A stretch of 48,453 nt of DNA from Planctomycetota bacterium (lineage in GTDB: Bacteria > Planctomycetota > Phycisphaerae > Phycisphaerales > UBA1924). Under the pieces are notes generated by a model that was not told the DNA's origin, ran no database searches, and saw nothing but the letters and a program-made list of their open reading frames with translations. A program made the translations under genes and the position numbers. The stretch spans positions 1 to 48,453 of the forward strand of contig JADFOF010000002.1 of assembly GCA_022563015.1 (NCBI GenBank). The letters run 5' to 3'. Below, piece after piece: positions 1,260-34,582 of this stretch. How positions within the stretch are numbered: position 1 is the stretch's first letter; the number at the start of each line of letters is the position of its first letter.

Positions 1260-1453
1260 GGGCTAAGTAACTTAGGGCAGGCCTCGGAGATCTGTCGAGG
1301 TCGGCAACAAGACAGCGGATATGATCGGGTTGTGTATGGGTAGTGGTTGACCCATTCCCGAGAACGGTGAAACCTCGCCCTCGGAAGGCACAGCAGCCGC
1401 TCACCGCGGGCGGAGGGCACCCCGGTCGCCGATCCAGGAAAGGATGCTCACCG

Positions 1454-1948
1454 ATGAACCAGCGAATGTCTCAGGCACCGTCGCCGTCCCGACGGCGGGC
1501 GTTCACGCTGATCGAGGTCATGATCGTGCTCGCGATCATCGTCGCGATGGGCGGGATTGTCGCGGTCGCCCTCTTCCAGCGCCAGAAGCAGGCTGACGTC
1601 AGGATTACGAGGATCAGTCTCAAGAGCATCGAGTCGGCGATCGAGTTTTTTCGGATGGACTATCGACGCTTCCCGTTTGAGCAAGAGGGGCTGGCTGTTC
1701 TGTGGGACAAGGAGATGCTGGACCCCGACAGCGACGAATCGGTCTGGACCGCCTATCTCAAGAAAAAGCTGGACAAGGACGCCTGGGGCAGCGAGTGGGG
1801 TTATCGCGAGGAGAGCGAGTTGATCGAGGGCACGTACGACCTCTGGTCGAACGGCCCGGACGGGGAAGAGGGTACGGACGACGACATCATGCTTCGCGAG
1901 TCGGACGAGGAAGATGAATTCGGGTTCTCAGAGCCCGGCGGAGGCTGA
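1454..1948 (+). CDS. gspG: Major pseudopilin GspG
   Basis: MNQRMSQAPSPSRRRAFTLIEVMIVLAIIV prepilin motif; C-terminal YDLWSNGPDGEEGTDDDI typical of GspG. ATG at 1454 preferred over the track start 1343. Confidence 0.92.
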   Translation: MNQRMSQAPSPSRRRAFTLIEVMIVLAIIVAMGGIVAVALFQRQKQADVRITRISLKSIESAIEFFRMDYRRFPFEQEGLAVLWDKEMLDPDSDESVWTAYLKKKLDKDAWGSEWGYREESELIEGTYDLWSNGPDGEEGTDDDIMLRESDEEDEFGFSEPGGG

Positions 1949-1972: not shown

Positions 1973-2788
1973 ATGCGCAAGACGGCCCACATCGCGGCCG
2001 CACCCTCGGCCAACGACTGTCGCCGGGGATCCGCGCCGCGAACGGGTTTTACGATCGTGGAACTGATGATCGTGGTGACGCTCATGGTCGCGATCACGGG
2101 GATCGTCATGCCGTCCATGCTCGGTCGGCTCGCGGGCTCGATCGCGGACGCAGCGATCGGCCGGATCGAGGCGACCGCGATCCAGTGCCGGGCCCTGGCG
2201 CAGCAGGAGGGTCGCGCCCTCCGCCTGACCGCGCGGCCTCGCCCCGACGGTTCCGCCGGGATCTACATCGAAGCGATCGGGACACGAGCCTCGGGTCGGC
2301 ACAGCCTCGAGGACGTGCTCCCGGCGGACGGGCAGGAATCGCCCGATGAGTTCGAGCGGCGGACGGGCGATCCCCGCAGCACCTATCCCGCGTACGTGCT
2401 GCCCGATGGGTACGTTCTGACGCGCCAGCCGCCCCGTACTGATGATCGCGGGCTGTTCGCGGATCCGCAGCGTAAACTCGGCCGCGCCGGACGATCGAAC
2501 GACTTTGGGCCGCGGGATGATCAGCCGCCCGGCGCGCCGCGGAGCACCCCCGGCCAGCTCCGGTTGACGATCGCCGTGTTCCTCCCCGACGGGACCGCCC
2601 TTGCGGGGACGCCTTTGTACCTGATCGGAGAAGACGTGACGTTCACGATTGAGATCAATCGCTGGACGGGCGGCGTGCAGGCGAGGCGCGTGAGTGCCGA
2701 CGATGAGGGCGGGCTCGACGAGGACGGCTGGGATCAACAGGCGACCCAGAGCGAGCAGCCGATCGGCGCTCGGGGGAGCAGCCGATGA
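1973..2788 (+). CDS. gspH: Minor pseudopilin GspH-like
   Basis: Prepilin motif GFTIVELMIVVTLMVAITGIVMPSMLG; position in operon. Confidence 0.75.
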   Translation: MRKTAHIAAAPSANDCRRGSAPRTGFTIVELMIVVTLMVAITGIVMPSMLGRLAGSIADAAIGRIEATAIQCRALAQQEGRALRLTARPRPDGSAGIYIEAIGTRASGRHSLEDVLPADGQESPDEFERRTGDPRSTYPAYVLPDGYVLTRQPPRTDDRGLFADPQRKLGRAGRSNDFGPRDDQPPGAPRSTPGQLRLTIAVFLPDGTALAGTPLYLIGEDVTFTIEINRWTGGVQARRVSADDEGGLDEDGWDQQATQSEQPIGARGSSR

Positions 2789-3363
2789 GCCCGCGCACAC
2801 GCACCACCCGGCGGGGCGGGATCCTGCTCGAGGTGATGCTTGCGCTGGCGCTATTGGTCATGGGATCGATGGCGATCCTGAGCGCAATGTCGCAGAGCAT
2901 CCACAGTCTCGAAGCCACGCGGTTGAAGCAGCAGGCGGCGGATCTGGCGCGTTCGGCGATGGCCAGGATCGAGGCCGGCATCGCAACGCCGGAAACATTG
3001 CAAGGGCCCGTGCCCGCGTGGGAATCCGACCCGGAATCGGGCGCGGATGAACTGAACGACGGCGCTCTTCCCGACGAGTTCGGGCTGGCGGCCACGGTCG
3101 GATGGGGCGAGGACTCCGGGTGGGAGCTGGAGATCGACACCAGCCCCAGCCCGTTCGCGGGGCTCGCGATCGTGCGCGTTCGGGCGCTGCGGCGAGCGTC
3201 GGCTGACTCCGATCGGATCATGGGGCAGTACACGCTCGAGCAGCTCGTCCGCTTGGGAACGCTCGAAACGGACGAAGCGGGTGCAGAGGACGAACTGATG
3301 GAGGAGGCGCGCCGGGGCATCGCCCAAGAGCGCCGCCGCACAGGCCCGGGGGGCGGGCCATGA
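2785..3363 (+). CDS. gspI: Minor pseudopilin GspI-like
   Basis: RRGGILLEVMLALALLVMGSMAIL; ATGA overlap with the upstream gene. Confidence 0.75.
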   Translation: MSPRTRTTRRGGILLEVMLALALLVMGSMAILSAMSQSIHSLEATRLKQQAADLARSAMARIEAGIATPETLQGPVPAWESDPESGADELNDGALPDEFGLAATVGWGEDSGWELEIDTSPSPFAGLAIVRVRALRRASADSDRIMGQYTLEQLVRLGTLETDEAGAEDELMEEARRGIAQERRRTGPGGGP

Positions 3364-4118
3364 GGCGATCGAGAGGATTCACCCTGCTCGAGATCATGCT
3401 CGCCATCGCGCTCCTGATGGCGCTGTCATCGACGCTGTTCTCGTTCATGCTGAATCTGATGAGCGGTCGAGATCGCCTGATCGAGGCGTCGCGCGACGGC
3501 CGGGCCGGCAGCAGCCTCATCGAGCGGCTGGAGAACGACATTCTCGGTGCCATCGCCGGGGACGCGACGGTCGGGGCGGGGATCGACGGCCAGGAGCACA
3601 GGCTCACGCTCCTGACGCGTTCGGTCAACGTGCCCAGCGGGCCGGAAGAGCTCGACTGGGCATTGGGCGATCTGCTGTCGGCGCGGTATGTGTTCGATGA
3701 GGCGGCGTCGGAGGTGCGCACGGTCCGGCGGGCGATCGTGCCCGGCGGGTCGGTCTCGGAGGCTGACGACGAAGTGATCTCCAGTCGCGTGCGTCGGCTG
3801 CGGTTTCGCTATCACGACGGGCAGATGTGGCGGAGTTCGTACAACTCGCTGCAACGCAACGGCCTGCCGGTCGCGATCGAGGTGGCGATCTGGTTCGGCG
3901 ACCCGCCTTCGCGCCCCGCGCTCGGGTCGGATTTGCCTGAAGACGCCGGCGACAACACGCCGTTGCAGTTCGGCGATGACTTCCCGGAACAGCCGGCTTC
4001 TGACGCGGGTCGGTCTGTCGAAGGCGACGAGGGCCCGCAGACGTTCGGCGAGCCCGATCGCCTGCGCGTGATGGTGGTTCCTGACGGGCCGGTGGCGGCG
4101 TGGAAGGGGGGGCGATGA
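3360..4118 (+). CDS. gspJ: Minor pseudopilin GspJ-like
   Basis: MRRSRGFTLLEIMLAIALLMALSSTLFSF; ATGA overlap with gspI. Confidence 0.78.
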   Translation: MRRSRGFTLLEIMLAIALLMALSSTLFSFMLNLMSGRDRLIEASRDGRAGSSLIERLENDILGAIAGDATVGAGIDGQEHRLTLLTRSVNVPSGPEELDWALGDLLSARYVFDEAASEVRTVRRAIVPGGSVSEADDEVISSRVRRLRFRYHDGQMWRSSYNSLQRNGLPVAIEVAIWFGDPPSRPALGSDLPEDAGDNTPLQFGDDFPEQPASDAGRSVEGDEGPQTFGEPDRLRVMVVPDGPVAAWKGGR

Positions 4119-5767
4119 CCGCACTGTGCGCCAAGGCCTCTGGACGCGGCGTCGTGCTGATGGCTGTGCTGGTGGTGCTGACCATCGGCGCGCTCGTCGG
4201 CACGACGGTGCTCGCGATGACCTCGGCCGAGCGCGCGACGGCGGAGACATCGCTGCGGCGCACGCAGGCGCGGGCGCTGGTGTGGTCGGGCGTGCAGGCG
4301 GTGATGGCCGAGCTGGCCACACAGCGCGAGGACATCCTCCAAGGCCGCGACCCGCACGTCACCGAGGAATGGACTGTTTTCGAGCGTCAGGACGGCACGC
4401 GCGGCGTGTTTCGACTCATCCCGATCGGCGCCGATGGGCTCCCGATCGTGAGCGAGTCGGCCAAGCTTGACGTGAACCATGCCACGGCGGAGATGCTCGA
4501 GGCCCTGCCGATGATCGATCGAACGCTCGCCGACGCGATCGTGCAGGCCCGCGAGCAACGCCTGTTCAGGAGTGTCGAGGAGCTGATCGCCGTGGACGGG
4601 ATCGACGCGGACCTGCTCTACGGGCAGCCCGGCGCGTTCGCCGGCGAGGACGCGTTGATGCAGGGTGGCGACCGACCGGCGCTGACGGAAGTGCTCACGG
4701 TGTTCAGCTTCGATCCCAATATCCAGGCCGGGATCGGGCGCGAGGGGTACCGCCACCGGGGCGACCTGCGGATCAACCTCAACACGCCGTGGTCCGAGCG
4801 CCTCGGCAGGGCGATCGCGCGTCGCTACGACGACAACGTGGCGAACGTCGTGAAGGGGTTGAAGGAGCGCGGGGTCGAGTTCGAGTCCAAAGCCACGCTG
4901 GTCGAGGTGCTGAGCGACTTCAACGTTCCACCCAGGGACTGGGCCGAGGTGTTCGACGTGTTCACGGTATCGTCCGATCCGTACCTGCTCGGTCGGGTGG
5001 ACGTGACGCGGGCGTCGCAGATGGTGCTGGCGTGTTTGCCGGGGTTCGACGACGCGATCGCCCGGAGCGCGGTCGAGATGCGAGACGGGCTTGACGCCGA
5101 GTCGCTCAAGAGCCCGACCTGGCTCGCGGCTGAGGAGGTGCTGACGGCGGTCCAGTACGCCCAGTGTGCCGACACCGTGACCACCCGGTCGATGCAGTGG
5201 CGTGTGCGGATCGAAGCAGGGCTGCTCCGCGACGACGCGCAGATCAACTGGAGCGGGGGTGATCGGGGCAACCCGGCCGAGGCGGACTTTGAGTCGCTCG
5301 CGTATCTCTACCAGGAGGACGCCGGCCTGATGGACCGGGTGGTGGTGGAGGCGGTGATCGACATCTCGTCGGCCCGGCCGCGCGTCGCGTACCTGCGCGA
5401 CCTCACCCTGATGAGCGTCGGGTGGGCGATCCGCGACGAGATCGTGGAGGCGCAACTCTGGGAGCAGCAGCCCGACGACCGAACCGCCCGGGACGACACG
5501 CCGGACGAGGGGCTCGGATCCGCCCAAGACCCCGCGGAATTGACCATCGGCGGTTCGATCCAGCGCGGGGCACGTCCCGGGTCAGACTCCGGGGTCGGAC
5601 AGCGATCGATGCGCGCGGGCAATGGGCCGGAACGAAAGGTTGGCGCGGCCCCGGGGGTCTCGGCCGACGAGAACGAAGATGCGACAGGTCGGGAGCAGGA
5701 CATGCCCGAAGCCGGGCCCGATCGAAGATTGGGCCGCTGGACCACTGGCCAGGGAGTCGGCCGATGA
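4115..5767 (+). CDS. gspK: Minor pseudopilin GspK-like
   Basis: N-terminal hydrophobic segment GVVLMAVLVVLTIGALVGTTVLAM plus helix-hairpin-helix-like LDVNHATAEMLEALPMIDRTLADAIVQARE; ATG at 4115 overlaps the gspJ stop (track start 4100 is GTG). Confidence 0.8.
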   Translation: MTALCAKASGRGVVLMAVLVVLTIGALVGTTVLAMTSAERATAETSLRRTQARALVWSGVQAVMAELATQREDILQGRDPHVTEEWTVFERQDGTRGVFRLIPIGADGLPIVSESAKLDVNHATAEMLEALPMIDRTLADAIVQAREQRLFRSVEELIAVDGIDADLLYGQPGAFAGEDALMQGGDRPALTEVLTVFSFDPNIQAGIGREGYRHRGDLRINLNTPWSERLGRAIARRYDDNVANVVKGLKERGVEFESKATLVEVLSDFNVPPRDWAEVFDVFTVSSDPYLLGRVDVTRASQMVLACLPGFDDAIARSAVEMRDGLDAESLKSPTWLAAEEVLTAVQYAQCADTVTTRSMQWRVRIEAGLLRDDAQINWSGGDRGNPAEADFESLAYLYQEDAGLMDRVVVEAVIDISSARPRVAYLRDLTLMSVGWAIRDEIVEAQLWEQQPDDRTARDDTPDEGLGSAQDPAELTIGGSIQRGARPGSDSGVGQRSMRAGNGPERKVGAAPGVSADENEDATGREQDMPEAGPDRRLGRWTTGQGVGR

Positions 5768-7353
5768 TCGGTAAAAAGGTACAATTCGCGCTCGAGATCG
5801 ACCGCGATCGCATCTGCGCGGTCCACGCGGATGTGCAGCGGCATCGGGTTGCGGTGCGGGCCTGGTGCTGCGCGGATCGGCCCGACGAGATCGACCCGTC
5901 GAACGCGGAGGCGGTGGGGGGCTGGGTCGCCCGCGAGCTTGCTCGATCGGGTATGCCCAGGAGCGGGGCCGTGATCGTCGTCCAGCGGGCGGAGGTCGTC
6001 CTCAAGAGGTTCATTCTGACCGTCGACGAGCAGTGGCGAGACGAGGATCTGGTCTCGATGGTTCGGCTGCAGATCTCGCGCCAGATCCCGGTGCCGATGG
6101 AGGGCACGGCGGTGGACTTCGTCCAGTTGCCCCAGAGCGTCTCGCCCACCGCGCCCGGTGCGGACGAGCAGCAGGGGCGTGTCGTGCGCGTGCTCGCCGG
6201 CGCGCTGCCGGGAGATCGGCTGAACTGGATCCGGGAGACGGCCAAGCGTGGTGGGCTCGGCGTCAGCCGCATCGGCCTGCGGGCGTCCGGTGCCGCAGCG
6301 GTCTTCGCCGAAACCTCCATCGCCCATGACGGGCCCATCCTCGGGGTCGCGCCCGGAGCGGCCTCGACCGAGTGCGTCATCGTCGAGAACGGTCGCCTGC
6401 TCTTCGCACGCGCTGTCGATCTGCCACTCCCTGACGACGCGGACATGCTCCCCGACTATGCCCAGCAGGTCGCGGTCGAGGCGAAGCGGACGTGGATGGC
6501 CTATCGCGCCAACCCGGATTCATCCGAGGTTCACGCGGTGTCGGTGCTGGGGCATGGCCCGGTTGCGCACGACATCGGGCGGGTCTGCGCGGCGGAGCTC
6601 GAGATGCCGTACGAGCGTCTGCGGCTGTCGGCGGCGATCGAGTTTCCGCCGGAGATGACCGACTGGGAGCGCAGCGTGGCGCTGCCGTTGATCGGCCTCA
6701 TGGCCGAGTCGGTCTTCACCGAAACTACACTGGACTTCCTGCATCCACGCCACGCGCCGGACCGGGCGGCGACACGCCGGCAGCGTGCGCTGCTGGGGGT
6801 GCTCGCGGCCGTGCTTGTGTTCGGGTCATTCGGCGCGTTCGGCTGGCTGCGCCTCGGGGATCTCGAGGATCGGCAGCAGAATCTGGAAGATACTCTCGGC
6901 CGGGCGCGCGTGAGCCACGCGAAGTTTGTCGTCGAGTCGGCGCGGCTGAGCCATCTCGAGCACTGGATCCAGCCGAGCGTCGACTGGGTCGCCCACCTCG
7001 CGTGGTTGAGCGATCACCTGCCCAGCACGCAGGAGGCGCGATTGGACGGCTTCGGCGGCGTGATGGACGGCGAGGTGGTGTTCACCTTGCCGCGCGGTGT
7101 GCGCGATATCACCAGCGGCCGGTGGTCGTCCAGCCAGAGCGTCGAGATCTCGCTGGGCGGGCCCGCCGTCAGCCGCGACATCGCCGACCAGTTCCGCGAG
7201 AGGCTGCTCGGGTCAAACGTGTACCGGGTCGACACGCGCGGGGCCGACGTGGCGGATTCATTCCAGCTTCTCTTGCACACCTCGCTTGGTTCACCGGCCG
7301 ACGCTGTGGTTCCCGCGGATGATCCCGACGCAGGACCGGAGGGCGAAGGATGA
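5764..7353 (+). CDS. GspL/PilM(-PilN)-like assembly protein
   Basis: N-terminal MIGKKVQFALEIDRDRICAVHADV (actin-like PilM/GspL style), central TM (ALLGVLAAVLVFGSFGAFGWL) and coiled coil. ATG at 5764 overlaps the gspK stop; the 643-aa track ORF overextends upstream. Confidence 0.65.
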   Translation: MIGKKVQFALEIDRDRICAVHADVQRHRVAVRAWCCADRPDEIDPSNAEAVGGWVARELARSGMPRSGAVIVVQRAEVVLKRFILTVDEQWRDEDLVSMVRLQISRQIPVPMEGTAVDFVQLPQSVSPTAPGADEQQGRVVRVLAGALPGDRLNWIRETAKRGGLGVSRIGLRASGAAAVFAETSIAHDGPILGVAPGAASTECVIVENGRLLFARAVDLPLPDDADMLPDYAQQVAVEAKRTWMAYRANPDSSEVHAVSVLGHGPVAHDIGRVCAAELEMPYERLRLSAAIEFPPEMTDWERSVALPLIGLMAESVFTETTLDFLHPRHAPDRAATRRQRALLGVLAAVLVFGSFGAFGWLRLGDLEDRQQNLEDTLGRARVSHAKFVVESARLSHLEHWIQPSVDWVAHLAWLSDHLPSTQEARLDGFGGVMDGEVVFTLPRGVRDITSGRWSSSQSVEISLGGPAVSRDIADQFRERLLGSNVYRVDTRGADVADSFQLLLHTSLGSPADAVVPADDPDAGPEGEG

Positions 7354-8315
7354 AGTTCGCCGGCAAGCACATCGCGATGAGCGTCGGCGCGCTGCTGGGC
7401 GTGATCGCAGTCCAACGCGCGTACAGCGTGCTGTACGCCTCGCCTCGCGATGCGCTCAACACGAAGATCAGCAGGCAGCAGGAGGAGCTGAATCGGTATG
7501 TCGGTGACGCGGCCGCAAGGGATGAACTCACCGGCAGGCGCAGCGAATTCATCGCAACCACACTCGGCGGCCAGGTCGACGAAGTGCAGCACGAGTTCCG
7601 AACGCGACTGACCGAAATCGCCAGGACGAGCGGTCTGATCGAGGAAGAGATCAAGGTGAGCAGCGGGAATCCGAGGTTCCCAGCCAATCCGGCGGCTCGA
7701 AGAGCGACGAAGTCATGGCGGGACCTCTTCCGCGCCGATCCGGATTTTGCGGTGATGGAGGGGCAGGTTCGCGGCGTGGGCACGCTCGATGACGTGCTGC
7801 GCACGGTGGCAACCATCCAGGCGCAGTCGTGGGCGCACCGTGTGGACTCGATCTCGCTGCGACCGTCGGCCGACGCCGAGACGTTCGAGCTGCGCGTGGG
7901 TGTGCGGACGGTGTTCCTGCCGGGCGAGAATCCCGAGACACTTCCGCCGGTGGAGGAACTCCCGATCAACGGGGAGATGGCCTGGGCGGGCATCGTGGCC
8001 AAGAATGTGTTTCGAGAGCCCAAGCCGACGGAGGCGGTCGTTGTGGCCCCGCCAACGCCCGAGACTCCGGTCGGCAAGCCGTCCCCGCCCTATCACGAAT
8101 GGCGTATGGTCGGCGTGTGGGACGGCGCGAATACGCTGGGTGTCATTCTTGTCAACACGCGCACCAAGGTTTCCCGGCTGCTCGTGCCCGGGGACCGTGT
8201 GCTGGGAGCGAAGCTGATTTCGGCGGCCGGTGAGCGGGCCCAGTTCGAGGTTGAAGGCACGCGCTACGAGCTGCTGCAGAAGCAGACGCTGGCCGAGTGG
8301 AGAGAACTGCACTAG
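7350..8315 (+). CDS. GspM/PilO-like protein with a C-terminal GspC homology-region-like segment
   Basis: N-terminal TM and coil (MSVGALLGVIAVQRAYSVLY...TKISRQQEELNRYV); C-terminal EWRMVGVWDGANTLGVILVNTRTKVSRLLVPGDRVLGAKLISAAGERAQFEVEGTRYEL resembles GspC HR domains; ATGA overlap with upstream gene. Confidence 0.55.
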   Translation: MKFAGKHIAMSVGALLGVIAVQRAYSVLYASPRDALNTKISRQQEELNRYVGDAAARDELTGRRSEFIATTLGGQVDEVQHEFRTRLTEIARTSGLIEEEIKVSSGNPRFPANPAARRATKSWRDLFRADPDFAVMEGQVRGVGTLDDVLRTVATIQAQSWAHRVDSISLRPSADAETFELRVGVRTVFLPGENPETLPPVEELPINGEMAWAGIVAKNVFREPKPTEAVVVAPPTPETPVGKPSPPYHEWRMVGVWDGANTLGVILVNTRTKVSRLLVPGDRVLGAKLISAAGERAQFEVEGTRYELLQKQTLAEWRELH

Positions 8316-8363: not shown

Positions 8364-11300
8364 ATGGACCGCAAGCAACACACATCATTGGCATTGGCGA
8401 TGGTCTTGACGGCTGGTCTGGCCGCACCGTCATACGCGATCATGCAAGAGAGCGTTCTCGCTGCGGACACGGCGCCGGCAGCGGTCACGCCTGAGGACCC
8501 GGGCCCACCGGCTGTCGATCCCGAGAAGCTGATTCGATTCAACTTCACGGAAGCGCCGTATTCAGCGGTGCTCGAGGCGTTCTCGCGCGAGTCCGGCTTG
8601 CCCATGATCCGCGAGGCCGAGCCGCCCGAGACCACGATGACCTTCATCAGCGGCAGCGCGTACACGTTCGACGACGCGCTGGGCATCCTCAACCAGTTCT
8701 TGAGAATGCACAACGTCTATGTGGCGCACGAAGACAACTATCTGTACTTCCGCACGCTGAAGGACGAAGCCCGTCAGGCGCGCCAGCCGGTCGGCGGACC
8801 CGTACCACCAGGCATTCCCGGGTACGAGATCGTGACCGTCACCATCCCGCTCAACAACGCGGCCGCGGCCACGACGCGGGAGAAGATCGAACGGCTGGTC
8901 GATCCGGACTACGGCAGCGTGATCGACGTGCCCGGGCCGAACTTTCTGATCGTCACCGAGACCGCCGATCAGTGCCGCAGGATCTGGGAGATCGTGTCGA
9001 TGATCGACGCCGATCTCGTGGATTTCAAGACCGAGTTGTACACACTCAAGTACTCCAAGGCGCAGGACGTGTACACAGCCCTGAAGGAACTGGTCAAGGT
9101 CAAGACGATCGAGACGATCATCGACCTGAAGGGCAACGTAACCACGCAGGTCAAGGACGGCAACGTCGACGGGCTCAACTTCTGGGCCGATGAACGCACG
9201 AACTCCATCCTTCTGGTCGGGCCGATGGCCCGCATCCAGGTCGTCACGGAACTGATCGAGCTGCTCGACGTTCCGGGCGGGCCCGGCGGCGAGCGGGAGA
9301 TGCGCACATTCCTGCTCGAGTCGATCACACCAGCGCAGGCGGCCACGAGCCTGGGCGATCTGTTCCGCGCGGTGCCGGATGATCGCAAGCCGACGATTCT
9401 GCCGCTGCCGGAGGTGGGCAAGATCACCGTCGTGGCGGCTCCGGGCGAGATGCTGCACGCGATATCGCTGCTGGGCGAGATCGACCCGGACTCAACGTCC
9501 GCGCTGCGCCCGCAGGGTGAGACGCCCGGCACCTATGGCAATCGCACGTACAAGCTCGTCCGCCTGGAGCACGTCACGCCGCAGCAGGCCGAGCAGATCG
9601 TCAAGCGATTGCTCACGGCACGGCAGCAGACCGTGCTGCGTTTCACGCCCTCGCCGGACGGCCGATCGTTGATCGTGTCCGGCCCATCGACGGATGTGGA
9701 GAGCTTTGAGACGCTCGTCGCGGGGATAGACCTCGCGCCCGATTTTGATAAGGAGTTCCGCCTTGTCCGCGTGACCAAGGGAGACCCCGCCCGGGTGCTG
9801 GCTCGGGCCGAGAGTCTCTTCACGGAAACCGGTCAGGCCGAGAAGCACCCCCTGACCATCTCGCTGGACAACCAGACCGGCGAGATCCAGTTGATCGGAT
9901 CCCGGCAGGGTCTGGCAGCGTTCGAGTCGTTGTTGCGCACGGTTGAAGCCGGCGTCGAGATCGACACCGAGGCACGCCATTACGTCCTTTCCCATATCTT
10001 GCCCAGTTCGATCGTGTCGAGTCTGACGCGGCTGTCGCGCCCGCTGCTCGAGCCGTCGGACGGCTCGGCGTACATCGCGCCGAGGTTCGAGGCGCTGGAC
10101 GAGCTGGACCGGCTGATCGTTCGTGCCGAGCCCGACCAGTTCACCATCATCGAGGAACTGATCGATGTCCTGGATCAAGAGGCGCCCGGCTCGACGCAGA
10201 TCCGATTCGAGCGCGTGCGGATGGGTGATCCGAACACGCTGGTGCAGCGTGCGCTGTCGCTGTACGAGGAGCGCACGCAGGGGATGGACGACCGCGACGC
10301 CGGGCCGGTGAACGTCGAGGTGGACACAGCCTCGGGCACGCTGGTCATCCGGGGAACGGCCGGTGGCATCCGGCTGTTCACCGAGTCGCTGACCCAGGTC
10401 CAGCAGCTCGTGCCGCCGCAACGGACCATGCGGATCGTCGATATTCAGAACGTGCGTGCGTCCGAGATCATCGAGCCGTTGCGCCAGTTCCTCGACTCCA
10501 CCGACCCGGTCGATCCGGCGCGCCGGGTCCCGGACCCGGACCTCGCCGTGGTCGAGCGGACGAACTCGCTGCTGGTCACGGCCGAGGACGCCCAGCACCG
10601 GCTGATCGCGGACTACGTGCGCCGGCTGGACGTGATCGAGCGGTCGGACCTGCCGCCGTTGCGGCTGCTTCAGATCAAGACCGCCGATTCGGCCGCCATC
10701 GCCTCGATGCTCACGCAGCAGTACGCCAAGCGTCCGCAATCGGACCGGGCGGCGCGGCCTGTCGAGGTGCGGGCGGACACCGCCACCAACACGCTCATCG
10801 TGTCGGCGCACCCGGAGCTGTACGACGAGATCAAGGACTTCGTCGAGCTGCTCAACACGCAGGAAGACGAGCCGGAACGCCAGACCATCCTGTTCCCGCT
10901 CAAGGTTGCCAAGGCGGACCTGGTCGCCGCCGCGATGGACAGGCTCTTCCCGGTGCCTCCCATGCCCCGTGATTCTCGCAACCGTCCGATGCCGTGGCTG
11001 CAGAAGGAGAAGGAGATCACGGTCTCGGCCGAGACGAGCAGCAACTCGCTCATCATCGACGCGCCGACGGACCGGATTCCTTCGCTGGAGGAACTCGCGC
11101 GCAAGCTCGACATCGTGGAGCTGCCGCCACAGGCGCAGCTGCGCACCTATCGCGTCATCAAGGCCGACCTCACCGCAGTCGCCACCACGCTCCGGGGCAT
11201 GTCCTCAAAGGGCATCCTCTCGGCCCCGGCGCAGCCCGGCAAGCAGCCCGTGCAGGTCGTGATCGAGACCGAGCCGCGGAGTTCGACGCTCATCGTGGCC

Positions 11301-14300
11301 GGCGACGAGGTCACGTTCGAGCGCGTCGAGCAGTTGCTCGAGGATCTCAACGAGGTGATCGTCGAGAGGGGCCTTCGCATCATCCCGATCGTCAATGCCC
11401 AGGTCGAAGACGTGCGCGAGCGGGCGCTGGCGATCTACAACGCCCAGATCGAATCGCTGCCCGGTGCCACACACGTGGACGTCACCATCAACTCCAAAAC
11501 CAACTCACTCGAGGTTGTCGGCGACGAGGACGCGCTGGGACGCTTCGTGAAGATTCTCGATGAGCTCCAGCGTCAGGCCGGACCCGCCCGCGAGGTTCGC
11601 ATCATCGAGCTGCGCCTGGCCAAGGTCGCCGACGTCGTCGGCTTCCTCGAGGAGATGGTCTCGGCGAGCGAGTCGATGCGGATCCAGGGCGGGCCCACGC
11701 CGGTCTTCGAGCCGATCGAAACGACCAACTCGCTGATGGTGGCCGCAACGACGGCGCAGTTTCCCATCATCGAGTCGCTGGTGCGGAGTCTGGACGCGCA
11801 GCAGACGGTCGATCGTCCGCCGCTGAAGATCCTGGCGCTGGACGCGACCGACGCAACGAGTCTGGCCAGCGTGCTGCAGCGCACGTACGACCAGAGGCCG
11901 ATGGACGAGCGGGCGAAACAGCCGGTCGAGATCCAGTCCGATCCCGCGACCAACACGCTGATCGTCTCGGCGCACGAGGACCTGCTGCCGGAGATCCAGG
12001 ACATCGTGCGCGAGCTCAACCAGAGCCGCATCGGCGACGAGGATCGCGAGATCCGCATCTTCCCGCTCCGGGTCGCGCGTGCCGAGGACCTGGCCAGGAC
12101 GATGGACGAGATGTTCCCCGTGCCGCCGATGCCCAAGGACTCGCGGGGCCGACCGCTCCCGCACCTGCAAAAGCCCAAGGAGATATTCGTTCGCGCCGAC
12201 CGCGCGACGAATTCGATCATCGTGGACGCCCCGGCCAAGCGGATGGCCGAGTTCAACGAGATCGTGAAGATGCTCGATTCGCCTCGGCAGTCGGACGTCG
12301 AGGTGCGCACGTACCGGATCGAGCGTGCGGACCTGGCGGCGGTGACGCGCACGCTGCAGGATCTCGCCTCGCGCGGCGCGCTCCCGCAGAGCGGGCAGAC
12401 CCCCGTCACCGTCAACGCCGAACCGATCAGCCGTACGCTCATCGTCAGCGGCCCGTCGGAGGTGTTCGAGGCGGTCGAGCAGATCCTGCTCGATCTCGAC
12501 GCCAGGCCCGACATTCCCCCGACCACGTTGAAGATGTACACGCTGAAGCACGCCCGGGCGGAGCGGCTGTCGAGCCTGCTCACCGATCTTCTGACGACCC
12601 GGCTGCGCGAGCAACAACTCGAGGAAGGGTTCGCCGTCGCGAGCATCGAAAGTCTGCTGCACGTGGCGGCGGATTCGGCGACCAACACGCTCATCATCTC
12701 CGCGCCCGAGGACGTGCAGCTGATCGCGGCGGAATTGATCAAGGTGCTTGACAGTGAGGCCGCACAGGTCGGGCGCGCGATCATCCGTGTGGTTCCGCTT
12801 ATCTACACCGACGCGGCGCAGGTCGCGCAGGATCTGATCGGCGCCCTGGCGAACTACGATTTGCCCACTGGCGGGACGGTCAGTGTGGTCCCGGCCCGCG
12901 GCTCGAACGCGCTGGTGCTGTCGGGCGCCGCCAAGGATCTCGACAAGATCGAAAAGGAGCTGATCGCCAACCTCGATCGTCAGCCGTTCGATCCGGAGAA
13001 GCCCGCCGTCGAGACCTTCGGGCTCGAGCACGCCGACGCGACCGCGATCGCTCAAACCGTCGAGCGCCTGCTCAAGGAGCAGCAGGAGACCGACCCGCGC
13101 ATCTTGCAGCTCATGGCGCGGTATCAGCGGAATCGGCCCGACCTGTTCAAGCAACCGTCGATCCGTGTCGAGGCCGAGCCGCGGACGAACTCGCTGCTCG
13201 TGTCCGGGACCGCCGCGACCATCGAGCTGGCGACAGCCATCATCGAGCGTCTGGATCAGCCGGCCGAGCAGGAGGAGCGTGAGTTGGTCACCTTCACACC
13301 GATGCGTGCCGACGCCGTGACGCTCGCCGCCGCCGTCTCCCGCATCGCCGAACAGACCATCGTGCGCACGCGCCGTCCGCTGGAGATCGTGGCCGAGCCG
13401 ACCTCGGGGAGCGTGCTCGTGATCGGCTCCAAGGAGCAGACCGCGCAGGTGGTGCTTCTGCTGGCGGAGTTTGACGACCGGACGCCGACCATCCCGCGGG
13501 TCGAGGTCGGCGTGTTCGATGTGATGCACACGGACGCCAGCTCCGTCGCGCGCACCGTGCAGGCGATGCTCAACGACCGTTCCCGCTGGCCGGACGAACT
13601 CCGGCGCGCCGAGCGCGCGGGGGTGGGCGTGCCGCAGCCGACCGTCAACGCGGACGGCAACAGGCTCGTCGTCAGTTCGCCCGTCGGGCTGATGGCGCTG
13701 GCGAGCGAGCTCATCGCGACCATCGATCAGCCGCCCAGCGGCGGCACACGCGAGGTGCGTGTATTTCGGCTGCACAAGGGCGAGGCGGAATCCGTCGCGA
13801 CGGCGGTCCGCCTGGCACTGGAGTCCAGCGCCGAACCAGGCCAACCCGTCCCCGTCGTGACACCCGAGCCCGCGAGCAATTCGATCGTCGTGTCCGGCCT
13901 GGCCGAGCAACTCATCGAGGCGGCCGAACTCATCACGTCGATGGACGACGCGGTCGAGCCGGGCGGCATGGGCGTGCGCACGATCTTTCTGGAGCACGCA
14001 CGGGCCGAGGCCATCGCCCCCATCATCGAACAGATATTGGAGAAGGAATCGTTCTTCGACCAGCTCGCGCCGTGGGAGAGAAGCCGCTACGTGGGCCGGT
14101 TCGGGGCCCCCCCGGACCAAGGCGGAATTCGTGTCTCCGCCGAACGCCGGCTGAACGCGATTGTCATCAGCGCGCCCGTCCATGTGCTCGAACTCGCTGA
14201 GCAGGTCGTGCACGAACTCGATGTGGACAGGGCGGACGCGGCCGCGTCAAGACCCATCCGCGTCATTCCGCTGCTCAACGCCGACGCGGCCCAGCTCGCG

Positions 14301-17300
14301 GCCAACGTCGAGGCGGTGTTCGAGGAAGACGAGTCCGGCGACCCGCCGCCCACGATTCGCGTCGATATAGAGGGCAACGCCCTCATCGTCCGCGCGACGA
14401 CCGATCAGATGGCGATGATCGAATCGCTGGCGAAACAGCTCGATTCGGCGGCGTTCGGATCACAGCGACAGCTCCGCATGATCCCGATCGACCGGTCCAA
14501 AGTGGACGCGACGATCATGGCCCTGACGCTCAAGCGCCTCATGGAGCACCGGGGCGGCGTCAAGGTCGAGGTCATCACCATCGAAGAATTGCTCACTGAG
14601 CCCGAGGAAACCGAGGACCCGGGCGGGGTGGGCCTGGCGCCCCCCGGGCGTGGCACGGGCCCCGCTGACACAATCGCGCGCATCGCCGCATATGCCGTCG
14701 CCGCGCAGCCGGAGCAAGTAGACAATTCGGGAAAAGTGGACGGGTCGGCTGGCGAAGTGGCGCAGCTCGACCCCGATGACGATACGCCCGTCATCCGGAT
14801 CGCCGTCGACCTCGACACCAACATGCTGGTCGTGATCGGTCCGCCGCGCCTGACCGACAGACTGTTTGAGCTTGTCACACATCTCCAGGACCAGATGCCC
14901 GCGGAGCCGACGGCGGTCCACATCGTCCCGCTTCCGGCCAGCATCAACCCGACGGACGTGCAGCGGCTTGTGAACCAGACCGTCCAGCAGGTCGGTCGCA
15001 CCTCGCCGACGAACCCGGGCGGATTCACCGGCAGGGTGGTGGCGCAGCCGGATCCGAGCGGCGGGGCGCTCATCGTCTGGGCCAACGACACCGACTTCGC
15101 GTCGATTCGCGAGATCATCACCTCGGTGGTCAAGCTCGACACGGCCACGCGGCTGACCATCAAGGTCTATCGCCTCGAAAACATCACCGCCCAGCGGGCG
15201 ATCCAGGCCATCAACGACCTGTTCACCGCCAGCCCGCGTGGCCGGCAGGCGCGCCGAATCCGAGGGCTCGACCTCACCATGCAGACGTCGGACGGGCGGG
15301 AGATCCGCGGCAGGCTCGACCCGTCGCTCATCCGTGTCACGGCGGATCCGAACGGCACGTCGATCATCGTCGCGGCGCCGGGCGATTCGATCCCGCTGAT
15401 CGACGAGCTGATCGGCGTGATGGATCAGAGCGACGTGTCCGAGCGGCTGTCGATCCGGCGGTACGCCCTGACCAACGCCCGGGCGGACGACCTCAACCGC
15501 ACGCTCCAGCAGCTCTTCGACGCCCAGCGGCAGGGGCCGAATCGAAACGAGATGCCACAGGCGCAGTTCATCGCCGATCAGCGGACGAACTCGCTGCTCG
15601 TGACCGCGTCGGAGGCGCAGCATCGCGAGGTGGAGCGGCTGCTCGTTGCTGCGGACGCGGCCGAGCTGGACGACGGGCTCGAACTCGAGATCATCACACT
15701 GCAGCACGCCCTGCCGTCGATGGTCGAGAAGATCATCAAGCAGGTGATCGTCGGCAACGATCCGGGGCGCGAGGGCCGCGTTCAGATCTCGGCCGATGAC
15801 GCGAGCAACGTGCTGGTCGTGCGCGCCTCGCCCGAGGACTTCTGGAATATCAGGCGGATCGTGGCCGAGGTGGACGGGGCCGACGTCGGGCAGCTCGCGG
15901 TTCGATCGATCAAGCTCGATCGCGCCGACGCGCAGAACGTCGCGCAATCGCTGCAACGATTCTTCCAGGACCGTGCGAGCGTGGCGAACCGAGCCGGTCG
16001 CGGCGGTGCCCGAAGCCGCGTCGCGATCACGGGCGATCGGCGGTCCGGCACGATCGTTGTCGCCGCCTCGGACGAGGACTTCGAGCAGATCCAGTCTCTG
16101 GTCGAGATGTTCGATCGGGAGAACGCGCAGGGCGACTGGCAGTTCCAGATCGTGCCGCTCAAGCACGCGAGCGTGTCGGACATCGCCGGGACGGTTGAGG
16201 ACATCGCCAATCAGATTCAGTTCGGCGGCTACTTCTTTTTCCGTCCGCGCGGGGCAGAGCAGGGTCGCGAGGACAAGATCTATGTGCGGAGCAACGAGCG
16301 CACGAACAGCCTGGTCGTGTTCGGAACCGGAGAGTTGTTCGATCAGATCCTGGGCGTGATCGAGAAGCTCGACCAGCCGTACTCGACGCAGGCGCTGCGC
16401 GTGGTCAAGGCGATCCGCGTCGAGGGTGCGGATCTGCGCGCGATGGCCCGGGTGGTCACGCAGGCGATGGAGAACCCGAATCGCGAGCGATGGTGGCTGC
16501 CCGATGCGGACGCCGTGCAGGTGCAGGTGGATCAGCGGCGACGGCTGCTCATGCTCATCGGGCCCGCCGAGCGCGTTGACATCGCGTTGGGGTACATCGA
16601 GGACCTGGCGCGGGCCGGCACACCCGAGACTCGCGAGATCGACACGATCGCGCTCCGACACGCCGAGGCCAGCGCAGCCGCGCGAAGCATCACCAGTTTC
16701 TTCCGCGATCGCGCCCGGGCGATGGGGCTGGCGGATCAGGAGGTCACGGTGATCGGCTCACCGGACGGCAACGTGCTGATCGTGTCGGCCGACCCCGAGC
16801 AGATGGTGCTGCTTCGCGATCTCGTGGCTCGGATCGATACCCCGACCGATGATGGCCGGCGCACGGAGGTGTACGTTCTCAAGCACACCACGGCCGAGGA
16901 GGCTGCGGGAACCATCAAGAGCCTCATGGATACCTCCGGCGAGGACGCGGTCCGCGTCATGCCCCAGCCGAGCACCAACGCGATCCTGGTCTCGGCCCCG
17001 GAGGATCAGTTCGAGCACATCGACGCGCTCATCGCGCAGCTGGACGTCGAGCCCGATCTCGAGGACGCCAGCATTGTCTCGGTGACGCTGCAGAACGCCC
17101 GGGCCGAGGACGTGGCCGAAGCGCTGCGCGACGCGCTGCCCGACACGATCAAGGTCAAGATCACGCCGGTATCGCGAACCAACTCGATCATCGTCAGCGG
17201 CACGCCCGAGGCCGTGAAGCTCGTCATCGATCAGATCCCGATATTCGAGATGGAGCCGTCCAGGCCGGCGATCGAGTTCCGGCGCTTCCAACTCACGAAC

Positions 17301-20300: not shown

Positions 20301-22163
20301 ATCCGGTCGCTGGTGGAGCGGCTCGACATGGCCGAGATCATCCAGGAACGCATCATCAAGCGCTTCGAGCTGGTGTCGTCCGACGCGCTGGCCGTCTCGA
20401 ATCTCCTGCAACAGGTGCTGGCCGGGCCGCCCGTCGGGCGAGGGCTCGGTGGAAGCGAGGCAGCGTTCAAGGTTCGGTACAACGATGTCGAGATGGAACT
20501 CGACGCCGCCACCCGCGCCCAGATCGCCGTCACGCCCGAGCTTGGCACGAACTCGATCTTCGTCCAGGCGCCGCCGGACGCGATGGCCTTCATCGAAGAG
20601 GTCGTCAATTCGGTCGAGCAGTCGCAGAACCTTGAGCGGACCATCGAGACGTTCCACCTGGTCAACGCGGACGCGAGGCAGATGGCCGAGGTGCTCAGCG
20701 CGCTGCTCAACCTCCGCCAGCAGGGCAACCGCATGATCCTCATTCCGACGCGCCGGCAGGGCGACGAGGAGCCCGAGGACCAGGAGGGTCTGTCGGGCAC
20801 GACGCTCACCGCAGTGCCCGACGAGCGGCAGGAGTTGTCGATCACGATCGACGCCCGGACCAACACGCTGCTGGTCTCCGGCACGGAGGAATACCTCGAT
20901 CTGGTGCGCAACATCGTGACCGAGCTGGACTCAATCGAGGCGGACGAGCGCGCGACGCTCGTGTTCGACCTGCAGAACGCCAAGGCCGAAGAAGTGGAGC
21001 AGCGCCTGCGAGACCTGTACCGGGCCGAGTCCGAAGCCCGGCAACGCGCCCTCGGGGGCCAGGAGGGCGGGTCGGCCAGCTCGGTATTCGAGCGGGAGGT
21101 TACGGTGGTCGGGGACGTGGCCTCGAACAAGGTCATCGTTCAGACCTCGCCGCGCTACATCAAGCTGGTCGAGGACATCATCAAGGAGCTCGACGCCCGT
21201 CCGCCGCAGGTCGAGATCCAGGTGCTCCTGGCCGAGGTGACGCTGGACGAGAGCACGCAGTGGGGAGTGGACTTCGACATCACCGATTTCGGGGGCGACA
21301 TGTACACGTTCGGGTCGCTCGCCGCCGGGGCCGGCGTCGCGTCGGCGCTGGGCGTGCCGAATCTCACGCTCTCTTCGGCTGACTTCGGAATTATGATTCG
21401 ATCGCTCGAGGCCCAGGGCCGCCTCGAAGTCCTCAGCAGGCCCAACGTCACCGTGAACAACAACCAGTCGGCCCGCATCAATGTGGGCCAGAACATCGCG
21501 CTGGTCACCGGCACGCAGTTCTTCGCGCAGGGCAACTCCCAAGCGATCGTAGAGCGAGAGGACGTGGGCATCATCCTCGAAGTCACGCCCTCGATCAGCA
21601 GCGACGGGTACGTGCGGCTGGAGATCTCGCCCACCATCTCTCAGGTCTCGGGCACGTCGGATCAGATCTCCGCGGGCGTGTTCTCGCCGCGCATCGACAT
21701 TCGAGAGATACAGACGACCGTCACGATCCGCGACGGGCAGACGATCGTCATCGGCGGCCTCATCCAGACCACGTTGGTGGATCGCGAGACCAAGGTGCCG
21801 TTCTTTGGAGACCTCCCGATCATCGGCCCCCTCTTCCGGTCCACGGATACCAACATCGTCAAGACGGAGCTGCTCGTCATCCTGACACCCACGATCATCC
21901 CTGGGGATGGTGTTCAGCACGCAACTCGTGTCAATCAGATTATCGCCGAAGAGATTTCCAGGAGATCCAACTCCGAGACGCTGCTCAAGATCGTGGAGGA
22001 GATGCAGCGCGGACCGGCGAAATCTGATTCCGCACCGGACGCCGATGCGCCCGGCAAGGGCGACAAGTCGGGCGAGAAGTGCATGGGCGAAGTGGACGAC
22101 GAAACCGAGAAGACGCACTCCAAAGCGCCCGCTGGTTCTGATCCCCCGGAGCCCGGAGCATGA
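8364..22163 (+). CDS. Giant type II secretion-like secretin (4599 aa) with about 50 tandem N-domain repeats
   Basis: Signal-peptide-like N-terminus; N0-like domain (LIRFNFTEAPYSAVLEAFSRESGLPM...); about 50 copies of a (T/S)N(S/T)L(I/L)VSG...I..L...LD motif; C-terminal secretin domain with RLEVLSRPNVTVNNNQSARINVGQ, DGQTIVIGGL, KVPFFGDLPIIGPLFRS, KTELLVILTPTII. Single uninterrupted frame. Confidence 0.93.
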   Translation: MDRKQHTSLALAMVLTAGLAAPSYAIMQESVLAADTAPAAVTPEDPGPPAVDPEKLIRFNFTEAPYSAVLEAFSRESGLPMIREAEPPETTMTFISGSAYTFDDALGILNQFLRMHNVYVAHEDNYLYFRTLKDEARQARQPVGGPVPPGIPGYEIVTVTIPLNNAAAATTREKIERLVDPDYGSVIDVPGPNFLIVTETADQCRRIWEIVSMIDADLVDFKTELYTLKYSKAQDVYTALKELVKVKTIETIIDLKGNVTTQVKDGNVDGLNFWADERTNSILLVGPMARIQVVTELIELLDVPGGPGGEREMRTFLLESITPAQAATSLGDLFRAVPDDRKPTILPLPEVGKITVVAAPGEMLHAISLLGEIDPDSTSALRPQGETPGTYGNRTYKLVRLEHVTPQQAEQIVKRLLTARQQTVLRFTPSPDGRSLIVSGPSTDVESFETLVAGIDLAPDFDKEFRLVRVTKGDPARVLARAESLFTETGQAEKHPLTISLDNQTGEIQLIGSRQGLAAFESLLRTVEAGVEIDTEARHYVLSHILPSSIVSSLTRLSRPLLEPSDGSAYIAPRFEALDELDRLIVRAEPDQFTIIEELIDVLDQEAPGSTQIRFERVRMGDPNTLVQRALSLYEERTQGMDDRDAGPVNVEVDTASGTLVIRGTAGGIRLFTESLTQVQQLVPPQRTMRIVDIQNVRASEIIEPLRQFLDSTDPVDPARRVPDPDLAVVERTNSLLVTAEDAQHRLIADYVRRLDVIERSDLPPLRLLQIKTADSAAIASMLTQQYAKRPQSDRAARPVEVRADTATNTLIVSAHPELYDEIKDFVELLNTQEDEPERQTILFPLKVAKADLVAAAMDRLFPVPPMPRDSRNRPMPWLQKEKEITVSAETSSNSLIIDAPTDRIPSLEELARKLDIVELPPQAQLRTYRVIKADLTAVATTLRGMSSKGILSAPAQPGKQPVQVVIETEPRSSTLIVAGDEVTFERVEQLLEDLNEVIVERGLRIIPIVNAQVEDVRERALAIYNAQIESLPGATHVDVTINSKTNSLEVVGDEDALGRFVKILDELQRQAGPAREVRIIELRLAKVADVVGFLEEMVSASESMRIQGGPTPVFEPIETTNSLMVAATTAQFPIIESLVRSLDAQQTVDRPPLKILALDATDATSLASVLQRTYDQRPMDERAKQPVEIQSDPATNTLIVSAHEDLLPEIQDIVRELNQSRIGDEDREIRIFPLRVARAEDLARTMDEMFPVPPMPKDSRGRPLPHLQKPKEIFVRADRATNSIIVDAPAKRMAEFNEIVKMLDSPRQSDVEVRTYRIERADLAAVTRTLQDLASRGALPQSGQTPVTVNAEPISRTLIVSGPSEVFEAVEQILLDLDARPDIPPTTLKMYTLKHARAERLSSLLTDLLTTRLREQQLEEGFAVASIESLLHVAADSATNTLIISAPEDVQLIAAELIKVLDSEAAQVGRAIIRVVPLIYTDAAQVAQDLIGALANYDLPTGGTVSVVPARGSNALVLSGAAKDLDKIEKELIANLDRQPFDPEKPAVETFGLEHADATAIAQTVERLLKEQQETDPRILQLMARYQRNRPDLFKQPSIRVEAEPRTNSLLVSGTAATIELATAIIERLDQPAEQEERELVTFTPMRADAVTLAAAVSRIAEQTIVRTRRPLEIVAEPTSGSVLVIGSKEQTAQVVLLLAEFDDRTPTIPRVEVGVFDVMHTDASSVARTVQAMLNDRSRWPDELRRAERAGVGVPQPTVNADGNRLVVSSPVGLMALASELIATIDQPPSGGTREVRVFRLHKGEAESVATAVRLALESSAEPGQPVPVVTPEPASNSIVVSGLAEQLIEAAELITSMDDAVEPGGMGVRTIFLEHARAEAIAPIIEQILEKESFFDQLAPWERSRYVGRFGAPPDQGGIRVSAERRLNAIVISAPVHVLELAEQVVHELDVDRADAAASRPIRVIPLLNADAAQLAANVEAVFEEDESGDPPPTIRVDIEGNALIVRATTDQMAMIESLAKQLDSAAFGSQRQLRMIPIDRSKVDATIMALTLKRLMEHRGGVKVEVITIEELLTEPEETEDPGGVGLAPPGRGTGPADTIARIAAYAVAAQPEQVDNSGKVDGSAGEVAQLDPDDDTPVIRIAVDLDTNMLVVIGPPRLTDRLFELVTHLQDQMPAEPTAVHIVPLPASINPTDVQRLVNQTVQQVGRTSPTNPGGFTGRVVAQPDPSGGALIVWANDTDFASIREIITSVVKLDTATRLTIKVYRLENITAQRAIQAINDLFTASPRGRQARRIRGLDLTMQTSDGREIRGRLDPSLIRVTADPNGTSIIVAAPGDSIPLIDELIGVMDQSDVSERLSIRRYALTNARADDLNRTLQQLFDAQRQGPNRNEMPQAQFIADQRTNSLLVTASEAQHREVERLLVAADAAELDDGLELEIITLQHALPSMVEKIIKQVIVGNDPGREGRVQISADDASNVLVVRASPEDFWNIRRIVAEVDGADVGQLAVRSIKLDRADAQNVAQSLQRFFQDRASVANRAGRGGARSRVAITGDRRSGTIVVAASDEDFEQIQSLVEMFDRENAQGDWQFQIVPLKHASVSDIAGTVEDIANQIQFGGYFFFRPRGAEQGREDKIYVRSNERTNSLVVFGTGELFDQILGVIEKLDQPYSTQALRVVKAIRVEGADLRAMARVVTQAMENPNRERWWLPDADAVQVQVDQRRRLLMLIGPAERVDIALGYIEDLARAGTPETREIDTIALRHAEASAAARSITSFFRDRARAMGLADQEVTVIGSPDGNVLIVSADPEQMVLLRDLVARIDTPTDDGRRTEVYVLKHTTAEEAAGTIKSLMDTSGEDAVRVMPQPSTNAILVSAPEDQFEHIDALIAQLDVEPDLEDASIVSVTLQNARAEDVAEALRDALPDTIKVKITPVSRTNSIIVSGTPEAVKLVIDQIPIFEMEPSRPAIEFRRFQLTNADAFDVVMTLERLARGMDRSRNAPEPNIDYLRDENVVLITAPLEQIETLSQWIEQLDVTSEDDQVTDFVELEYAQAEQVANALDVFYGPYARQAKTPGARNVSIVADPVTNSLIISANETEWINIRALLERFDNEKYDTAQTIRLIALKHADAATVARALNEGFRAPIEAQLQRERIQIEARERGRRGRNDDFGFAQPAVLLDLDDTPTVSAEPMTNSLIIFASKKQIQRIEKIVEQLDSDEFVQINQPRIIPITTGRPSEIAGVIRQTFENRSVRSGPRSLLVVGSDSAGVLIVRADEADFAQVLALAESLQQEGLESLPTVRTIALHGTPASRLRDTLLASFQPVAQKRGESLAITVDRSSNRLVISSSKDLFEQIREVALELDGSLGGPEGLRDGIGQSVKIVNVTNNDPAAIRQMLNQMGVMRGQPADLPGVVNDPVQVVPLRTRRAVALIGNPVDIEAVASLIAVIDAEPLASEQHIAIVHLMQNDADRVASAMRELLDVASGANTAPAQALQEQIRRLNIARNGIGDEDLSLDLSVPIRLIPDSTTNTLSIASTIENVAALIVLAKSFDTLALGDAVVVRIFALENADAGRTKRVIDELFRQGESLSRLPGSQRLSTPTTATGKALAGTIAVSVDERTNALIVAGREEAVAFVEVLIGQLDSDEAANWVETRVIALEHADALRLAETLRRVIVHGQRELPGAMGLQRQVARLLMRDGDGPEGRIEADLFLPLTDVIIEAEEQLNALIVVASSSNLRVVGKLVEMLDVPLAGADNTVRIYPLEFAAADRVASMIDGFFERRERSKLMRPEDTVIITPDLRTNSLIVSTSPRSFTLIESLLKTMDGEERDFTVGIHVLPVEGADVARLAPKIQAAMTERIQAGRRAGDVSSPLDTFRVDADPTTNVLLVTSSDENLQIVKDLIEALTAEGVPDVRAAEGFAIIPVTTQPPEEIAAHINEIYVSKENERRGEGTISVRPNERLSALIVSGTEEDIKQIRSLVERLDMAEIIQERIIKRFELVSSDALAVSNLLQQVLAGPPVGRGLGGSEAAFKVRYNDVEMELDAATRAQIAVTPELGTNSIFVQAPPDAMAFIEEVVNSVEQSQNLERTIETFHLVNADARQMAEVLSALLNLRQQGNRMILIPTRRQGDEEPEDQEGLSGTTLTAVPDERQELSITIDARTNTLLVSGTEEYLDLVRNIVTELDSIEADERATLVFDLQNAKAEEVEQRLRDLYRAESEARQRALGGQEGGSASSVFEREVTVVGDVASNKVIVQTSPRYIKLVEDIIKELDARPPQVEIQVLLAEVTLDESTQWGVDFDITDFGGDMYTFGSLAAGAGVASALGVPNLTLSSADFGIMIRSLEAQGRLEVLSRPNVTVNNNQSARINVGQNIALVTGTQFFAQGNSQAIVEREDVGIILEVTPSISSDGYVRLEISPTISQVSGTSDQISAGVFSPRIDIREIQTTVTIRDGQTIVIGGLIQTTLVDRETKVPFFGDLPIIGPLFRSTDTNIVKTELLVILTPTIIPGDGVQHATRVNQIIAEEISRRSNSETLLKIVEEMQRGPAKSDSAPDADAPGKGDKSGEKCMGEVDDETEKTHSKAPAGSDPPEPGA
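8820..21200 (+). repeat. Array of about 50 diverged secretin N-domain (N1/NolW-type) coding repeats, about 80 codons each
   Basis: Manual count of the terminal beta-strand/helix motif, from GPNFLIVTETADQCRRIWEIVSMID to ASNKVIVQTSPRYIKLVEDIIKELD. Confidence 0.88.
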
Positions 22164-22702
22164 GCCGGCTCGCGATCGACAGACGGTGCCGCGATGGAAG
22201 GCGCGTCCTGCGCACCGCCGCGCCTGTGGCCTTGTGTATCGCGATGATTTCCTGCGCGAGCGATCGCGCCGGCAGGAGGTCGCTGGGCAAGCCGCCGCAG
22301 GACGCCCAGCCGGCCCATCTGGTGATGGGCGTGCTCGGAAAGATCATCGATTCGGACGAGAACGGGTTCCCGGACACAATCGTCGTAGTGGTCAACGTGA
22401 TGATCCGCGTTCATCCCGTGCCGATCACACCCCCGGGCACGTTTGTGTTTCGACTCGAGGACGAGGATGGCACGGTTCTGGTGCGGTGGGAGCTGGACGA
22501 GGAATCGACGCGTGCGGCCCGGCGGCCGGCGACGCTGATCGGCCCGGGATACGTGTTCCGCCTCAGTATTCTCGACAAGATCCCCGACGCCATGCCGCCC
22601 ACCTCGATGAGCCTCAGCGCGACCTTCCTGCCCACCGTCGGCGAGCCGGCCGAATCCTCGGGGCGCAAATACGTGCGGTTCGGTCGCGATCGCGGTTATT
22701 AG
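22160..22702 (+). CDS. Small putative lipoprotein translationally coupled to the secretin gene
   Basis: ATGA overlap with the secretin stop; signal peptide with lipobox-like CIAMISCAS; no family recognised. Confidence 0.65.
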   Translation: MSRLAIDRRCRDGRRVLRTAAPVALCIAMISCASDRAGRRSLGKPPQDAQPAHLVMGVLGKIIDSDENGFPDTIVVVVNVMIRVHPVPITPPGTFVFRLEDEDGTVLVRWELDEESTRAARRPATLIGPGYVFRLSILDKIPDAMPPTSMSLSATFLPTVGEPAESSGRKYVRFGRDRGY

Positions 22703-25707: not shown

Positions 25708-25759
25708 GCCGCCGCATCCGACCCGCAGTTGACCAGCGTACGAGAGAAAGCCCCGCACC

Positions 25760-32634: not shown

Positions 32635-32818
32635 GGACCTGGGGGGCCAGGATTGGAGATCGGCTCTAACTCAATACAGGGCCGTGCTTTGCGTCCAGAC
32701 CCGCTTTGGCACCGCGATTGCCGCCCTTGGGACCGGGGAGTGCACGCGCCCAGAGTGTCGGGCGGGCTCTCGCCGGCTGATTCCCAACCCCACACCCGTA
32801 CAGACGGAGCAACGACCC

Positions 32819-34582
<1,764 letters not shown>

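Follow-up and report, generated by a model that had tools for sequence, protein, structure and literature searches.

Secretins of known structure carry three to six periplasmic rings, which are formed by their N-domains (PMC5745081). Secretins of the type II secretion system (T2SS) have three ring-building domains, N1-N3 (PMC10550240). PilQ of Thermus thermophilus, a secretin of the type IV pilus and of DNA uptake, stacks six rings over a length of 350 angstroms with 757 residues, and its extended N-module has been tied by the authors to a wide periplasm (PMC5745081). The periplasm of planctomycetes can be greatly enlarged, as documented for Planctomycetia but not for Phycisphaerales (PMC5394234).

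The window analysed here, a stretch of 48,453 nucleotides from a Phycisphaerales planctomycete, contains an open reading frame whose 4599-aa product is, judged by its sequence, a T2SS GspD with an N0 domain, 50 N1-type domains and a secretin domain (Table 1). The NCBIfam model TIGR02517 scores 1140 bits against it, summed over many repeats, at a cut-off of 351; in Pfam, Secretin_N matches in 36 stretches and the secretin domain once. Our own model of the N1-type unit (beta-alpha-beta-beta-alpha) identified 49 domains, which together with one divergent domain after N0 give 50; this model was at first circularly permuted, starting at strand 2, and was later re-phased, so the earlier D numbers do not coincide with the present N numbers but are offset from them. 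The N0-N1 part is 27% identical (E 8e-16) to that of the order's short canonical GspD, a protein with three N1-type domains. A profile of the orthologues matched GspD chains in the PDB, including the N0 region, with the best stretch lying mostly in N1, and Pfam STN had no match in the giant. The protein thus shares with GspD the N0, N1-type and secretin domains and the F-M operon neighbours, and GspD provides its best sequence and fold matches. It differs in having 50 N1-type domains instead of the three (N1-N3) of described T2SS secretins, and in its higher-order repeats. This is a difference of size in a protein of the same kind, which makes it a variant of GspD rather than an ordinary member. 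With Thermus PilQ it has an extended N-module in common, although PilQ has no such large array. We found no report of a secretin of this size within the open-access literature searched, and a 50-domain GspD is new as far as that literature shows.

The giant gene lies among T2SS genes in the order F-G-...-K-L-M-D, and the same order is seen in a single-contig genome (G116) as far as families match. Within the three small genes after gspG, N_methyl matched weakly in 1973-2788 and, together with a weak T2SSJ match, in 3360-4118, while 2785-3363 had no Pfam match. GspL was found in 84 of 163 genomes of the family, 79 of which also have the giant. The lipoprotein gene that overlaps the giant's stop codon has a homologue in 76 of 78 giant loci, with the lipobox Cys32 invariant in 30 of 30. 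Its product carries a D-x-[DN]-x-N-G-x-x-D-like motif and belongs to no known family; its predicted fold is a beta-sandwich, without a match to a pilotin fold. It is possibly a dedicated pilotin. Further downstream on the same strand are a 2-oxoglutarate dehydrogenase E1-like gene, so named by sequence, along with a 2-oxoacid dehydrogenase acyltransferase gene (~22900-27040), two closely spaced Cpn60-family chaperonin genes (32684-34582 and 36970-38583), and then dnaJ (38692-39840).

Table 1. Features of the window, with the evidence for each
Feature	Position	Strand	Evidence or remark
gspF, cut by contig start	1-1056	+	TIGR02120, PF00482
gspG	1343-1948	+	PF08334; TIGR01710 over cut-off
Three small genes, H/I/J-like by position	1973-4118	+	prepilin motifs in outer two
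gspK-like	4100-5767	+	PF03934, HHH_3
gspL/PilM-like, true start probably near 5758	5422-7353	+	weak PilM_2
gspM-like	7350-8315	+	no family match; similar ORF directly upstream of giant in 65/78 loci
Giant gspD, 4599 aa	8364-22163	+	signal-like N-terminus, N0, 50 N1-type domains, secretin domain; TIGR02517
N0 domain, aa 57-130	8532-8753	+	match to short canonical GspD; orthologue profile matches solved GspD chains
N5-N6, related to N7-N8 at offset 2	9723-10166	+	N5-N7 z 4.4, N6-N8 z 3.4
Block A, N7-N11, aa 602-993	10167-11342	+	offset-5 z values, tree
Proline-rich insert of N10, RLFPVPPMPRDSRNRPMPWLQKEKE	10941-11015	+	in helix 1-strand 2 loop, predicted as ordered
Block B, N12-N16, aa 994-1376	11343-12491	+	directly adjoins A; offset-5 z values, tree
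N15 counterpart of N10 insert, MFPVPPMPKDSRGRPLPHLQKPKE	12111-12182	+	conservation, position, model
N17-N20, first copy of four-domain repeat	12492-13466	+	offset-4 z, shuffle
N21-N24, second copy of four-domain repeat	13467-14435	+	offset-4 z, shuffle; deletions
Secretin domain	21405-21899	+	PF00263 E 1.5e-46; solved GspD best E 2.4e-41
Lipoprotein gene, candidate pilotin	22160-22702	+	overlaps giant gspD stop by 4 bases

A secretin-domain search with a limit of E 1e-40 detected orthologues in 82 of the 163 genomes from the window's family. Almost all are giants, some of them cut by contig ends, and orthologues also occur in several families of the order; the named orthologue records belong to Planctomycetota and Phycisphaerales. 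Among 392 genomes sampled across the phylum, for which only matches at E 1e-32 or better were visible, frames longer than 2400 aa were confined to this order and those elsewhere reached up to ~1500 aa. Giants are present in single-contig genomes (G036, G108, G116 and G188) and are therefore not assembly products. The short form in L101 is truncated at a contig end and was left out as a full-length control, L102 being used instead. In the same genus as the window, a 98% identical giant (L016, genome G001) is without N2-N7 and has an unrelated start, which may be an artefact of a contig end or of the frame. The arrays of two families, f1 and f2, align to that of the window position by position, and every position is represented by an orthologue in other genera. 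Domain counts range from ~30 to 53 among the giants. The mode is 50, shared by many genera and seen in 21 of 79 giants (17 after re-phasing of the model, which in some arrays fails to detect the first domain). The modal count and the orthology of each position would suit an array that acts as a ruler for envelope width, with selection holding it near 50. This is a rather doubtful reading given the spread of counts and the shorter arrays, which are common and sometimes found within one genus, and a fixed length is not required because giants with 30-37 domains also look intact.

When the giant was compared with itself, the two best ungapped off-diagonals were at offsets of 388 aa (aa 723-831 against 1111-1219, 51 of 109 identical, score 250) and 389 aa (aa 828-916 against 1217-1305, 43 of 89 identical, score 232); the third-best scored 121. 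The preliminary description of this DNA had reported that 10428-11355 and 11595-12510 align about 390 aa apart and had named a dot plot among the checks. The alignment is borne out over 300 residues with 44% identity (57% in DNA), the off-diagonals at +388 and +389 aa are the strongest of the whole protein, and the motifs lie where they were placed (the two inserts of Table 1, and ATNTLIVSAH... at 10782 and 11946). Position-averaged over 31 orthologues, the offset-5 z values were 4.1 for N7-N12, 5.3 for N8-N13, 9.8 for N9-N14, 11.1 for N10-N15 and 7.2 for N11-N16, and the flanking pairs were at background (N6-N11, z 0.7; N12-N17, z -1.5). Domain n therefore pairs with n+5 inside the block and not outside it, and a repeat phylogeny also joins n to n+5, a test that the preliminary description had set. 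Blocks A and B form a tandem at 10167-12491 without a spacer, with borders in the linkers between domains, and the sequence thus shows a unit of exactly five whole domains and a single tandem duplication. The interval first given for it, 10428-12510, captured the five-domain offset but starts inside N8 and omits the left pair, N7/N12, which is weaker than the block core. A breakpoint inside a domain, with D11 as a two-domain hybrid, had appeared under the permuted model and proved to be its artefact, as re-phasing puts the borders between domains.

The inserts of N10 and N15 are both conserved, each between helix 1 and strand 2, with invariant P/D positions in 38 orthologues, and in the AlphaFold model pLDDT is ~77-86 around the N10 insert. 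The fold is common to all domains and there is some background similarity between them, so that A and B might in principle resemble each other by convergence or through the common N-domain fold, with no duplication at all. We regard the chance of this as negligible and reject it on the offset-5 z pattern, since five consecutive pairs match at one offset, including a 25-residue insert, and similarity falls sharply at both block ends. Shuffling of the domain order reached the observed run in 0 of 2000 trials (earlier domain phase). A and B almost certainly arose by duplication.

To date the duplication, 79 orthologous giants from Phycisphaerales-type planctomycetes were typed for the two blocks by score threshold, which detected both blocks in 41, one in 19 and none in 19. 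Every A block is closer to A and every B block closer to B. All A copies form one clade that spans the two families, with the f1 and f2 parts inside it (support 99-100); the values were 99 for A of all families, 100 for A of f2 and 70 for A of f1, where support is only moderate (70-87). Within f1 and within f2, single-copy blocks group with that family's B copies. A tree with the singles outside A+B was rejected (209 log-likelihood units worse, AU p 4e-38), and the single-copy proteins are therefore losses. It is very improbable that the duplication was recent in some lineages, with the single-copy state ancestral and copy A merely fast-evolving. All 19 single-copy blocks are B-like, as an unduplicated ancestor might be, but the block tree, under the model used, rejects such a history on three counts: the single A clade of f1 and f2, the cost of holding A+B together without the singles, and the position of the singles with B copies of their own family. 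Homogenisation between the copies was looked for by comparing identities and not found, as A and B are 0.44 identical both within and between genomes; A-A and B-B identity across families is 0.53. At 44% identity the two are old rather than recent, near-identical copies. We conclude that the duplication very probably preceded the split of f1 and f2 and was followed by secondary losses.

On a core-domain tree (earlier domain phase) no fewer than 14 changes of the two-copy state are forced, with the losses scattered. Among 72 mapped arrays, N41-N50 were present in all 72, and occupancy was lowest at N7-N12 (0.54-0.69) and N18-N21 (0.61-0.67). Most five-domain deletions are at N7-N14 and four-domain deletions at N18-N23; the commonest, of N18-N21, was seen in 14 arrays. 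Such counts are not independent, since related arrays have events in common. Every single-copy array keeps B-type N14-N16, with A-type or mixed domains before them. In L024, L029 and L043, N7 is followed by N13, and in L025 and L059 the B type begins at N12. Such hybrid junctions are as expected from recombination between A and B. The variation among most living relatives is thus whole-block loss rather than growth, and the later history of f1 and f2 is mainly one of contraction. The preliminary description had proposed growth by multi-domain segmental duplication, which holds for the origin of the block; the event is old, however, and later change in f1 and f2 was mostly in the other direction. 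The many independent block losses would also suit neutral drift of array size by inter-repeat recombination, with no specific role for the second copy. We consider this unlikely in view of the B-type N14-N16 kept in every single-copy array, the constancy of N41-N50 and the conservation of both inserts. Higher-order tandem repeats of domain arrays are known from the super-repeats of titin. The giant's repeat resembles these in its several-domain period and its growth by segmental duplication, and differs in lying in a bacterial secretin, where the later event is more often that one copy is lost.

An AlphaFold model that covers aa 641-1414, starting inside N7 and ending inside N17, consists of serial beta-alpha-beta-beta-alpha units with a mean pLDDT of 79, and its best Foldseek matches are the N-domains of GspD/ExeD/XcpQ. 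Relative domain placement is not predicted (pTM 0.35 for the ten-domain model). This poor inter-domain order, and the long inserts in several domains (e.g. aa 2025-2172), would fit a flexible domain string that binds partner proteins, substrate or peptidoglycan. Such a string is nevertheless improbable, given that the N-domains of solved secretins form rings (PMC5745081), that the linkers between most domains are a few residues long, and that domain lengths in the block barely vary between genera (sd 0.5-3.4 aa). We are somewhat inclined to the view that the array works as a ring-stack channel, and most likely it would be a periplasmic channel of exceptional length, working for the gspF-M operon next to it. 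As in GspD and PilQ, neighbouring copies of each domain in the oligomer would close into a ring, and the array would be a stacked tube. At 3-4 nm per ring, taken from the six-ring, 350-angstrom PilQ, 50-51 rings would extrapolate to roughly 150-200 nm, a length that would suit the enlarged planctomycete periplasm. The N-module has expanded to 50 ring-building domains, where three are usual, with one tandem duplication of five domains, whose copies diverged without homogenising and of which many lineages lost a block. Five-domain blocks could come or go with domains and reading frame unbroken. Taken as a whole, an outer-membrane T2SS secretin with an old five-domain duplication, block losses and a stacked tube is probably the best explanation. 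More tentatively, Phycisphaerales-type bacteria may bridge a very wide periplasm for type II secretion with tubes of ~50 stacked rings, of the order of 150-200 nm, and the gain and loss of multi-domain blocks would set their length. The conserved 50-domain form can be traced domain by domain across genera, and it offers a dated example of a ring-stack machine lengthened and shortened by whole-domain units. Across the natural series of array lengths (~30-53), the length of the channel can be compared with the width of the envelope and with the gain or loss of blocks.

Other repeat layers flank the five-domain block. The offset-2 relation of N5-N6 to N7-N8 (shuffle p 0.0015, earlier domain phase) is an older two-domain layer, weaker than the block. 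The four-domain repeat of N17-N20 and N21-N24 (offset-4 z 2.8 for N17-N21, 1.1 for N18-N22 and 4.3 for N19-N23; shuffle p 0.012, likewise in the earlier phase) is also an older layer and weaker than the block core. In the giants of f5 and f6 (L086, L091, L094, L095 and L097) only about the last nine domains correspond to the window's array, which suggests that most of these arrays arose separately or diverged past recognition. In L097 (G236), domains 21-34 comprise roughly six copies of a two-domain unit that are 55-89% identical; in L091 the identity of a two-domain pair is 68-85%, and L094 has four-domain units. Growth by multi-domain units thus continues outside f1 and f2, with recent two-domain units in L097 and L091. 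Assembly collapse of repeats could affect L097; for A and B it is unlikely, as the copies are only 57% identical in DNA. In other families of the phylum (G436, G589, G624, G660 and others), secretin frames of 1200-1500 aa are perhaps intermediate expansions.
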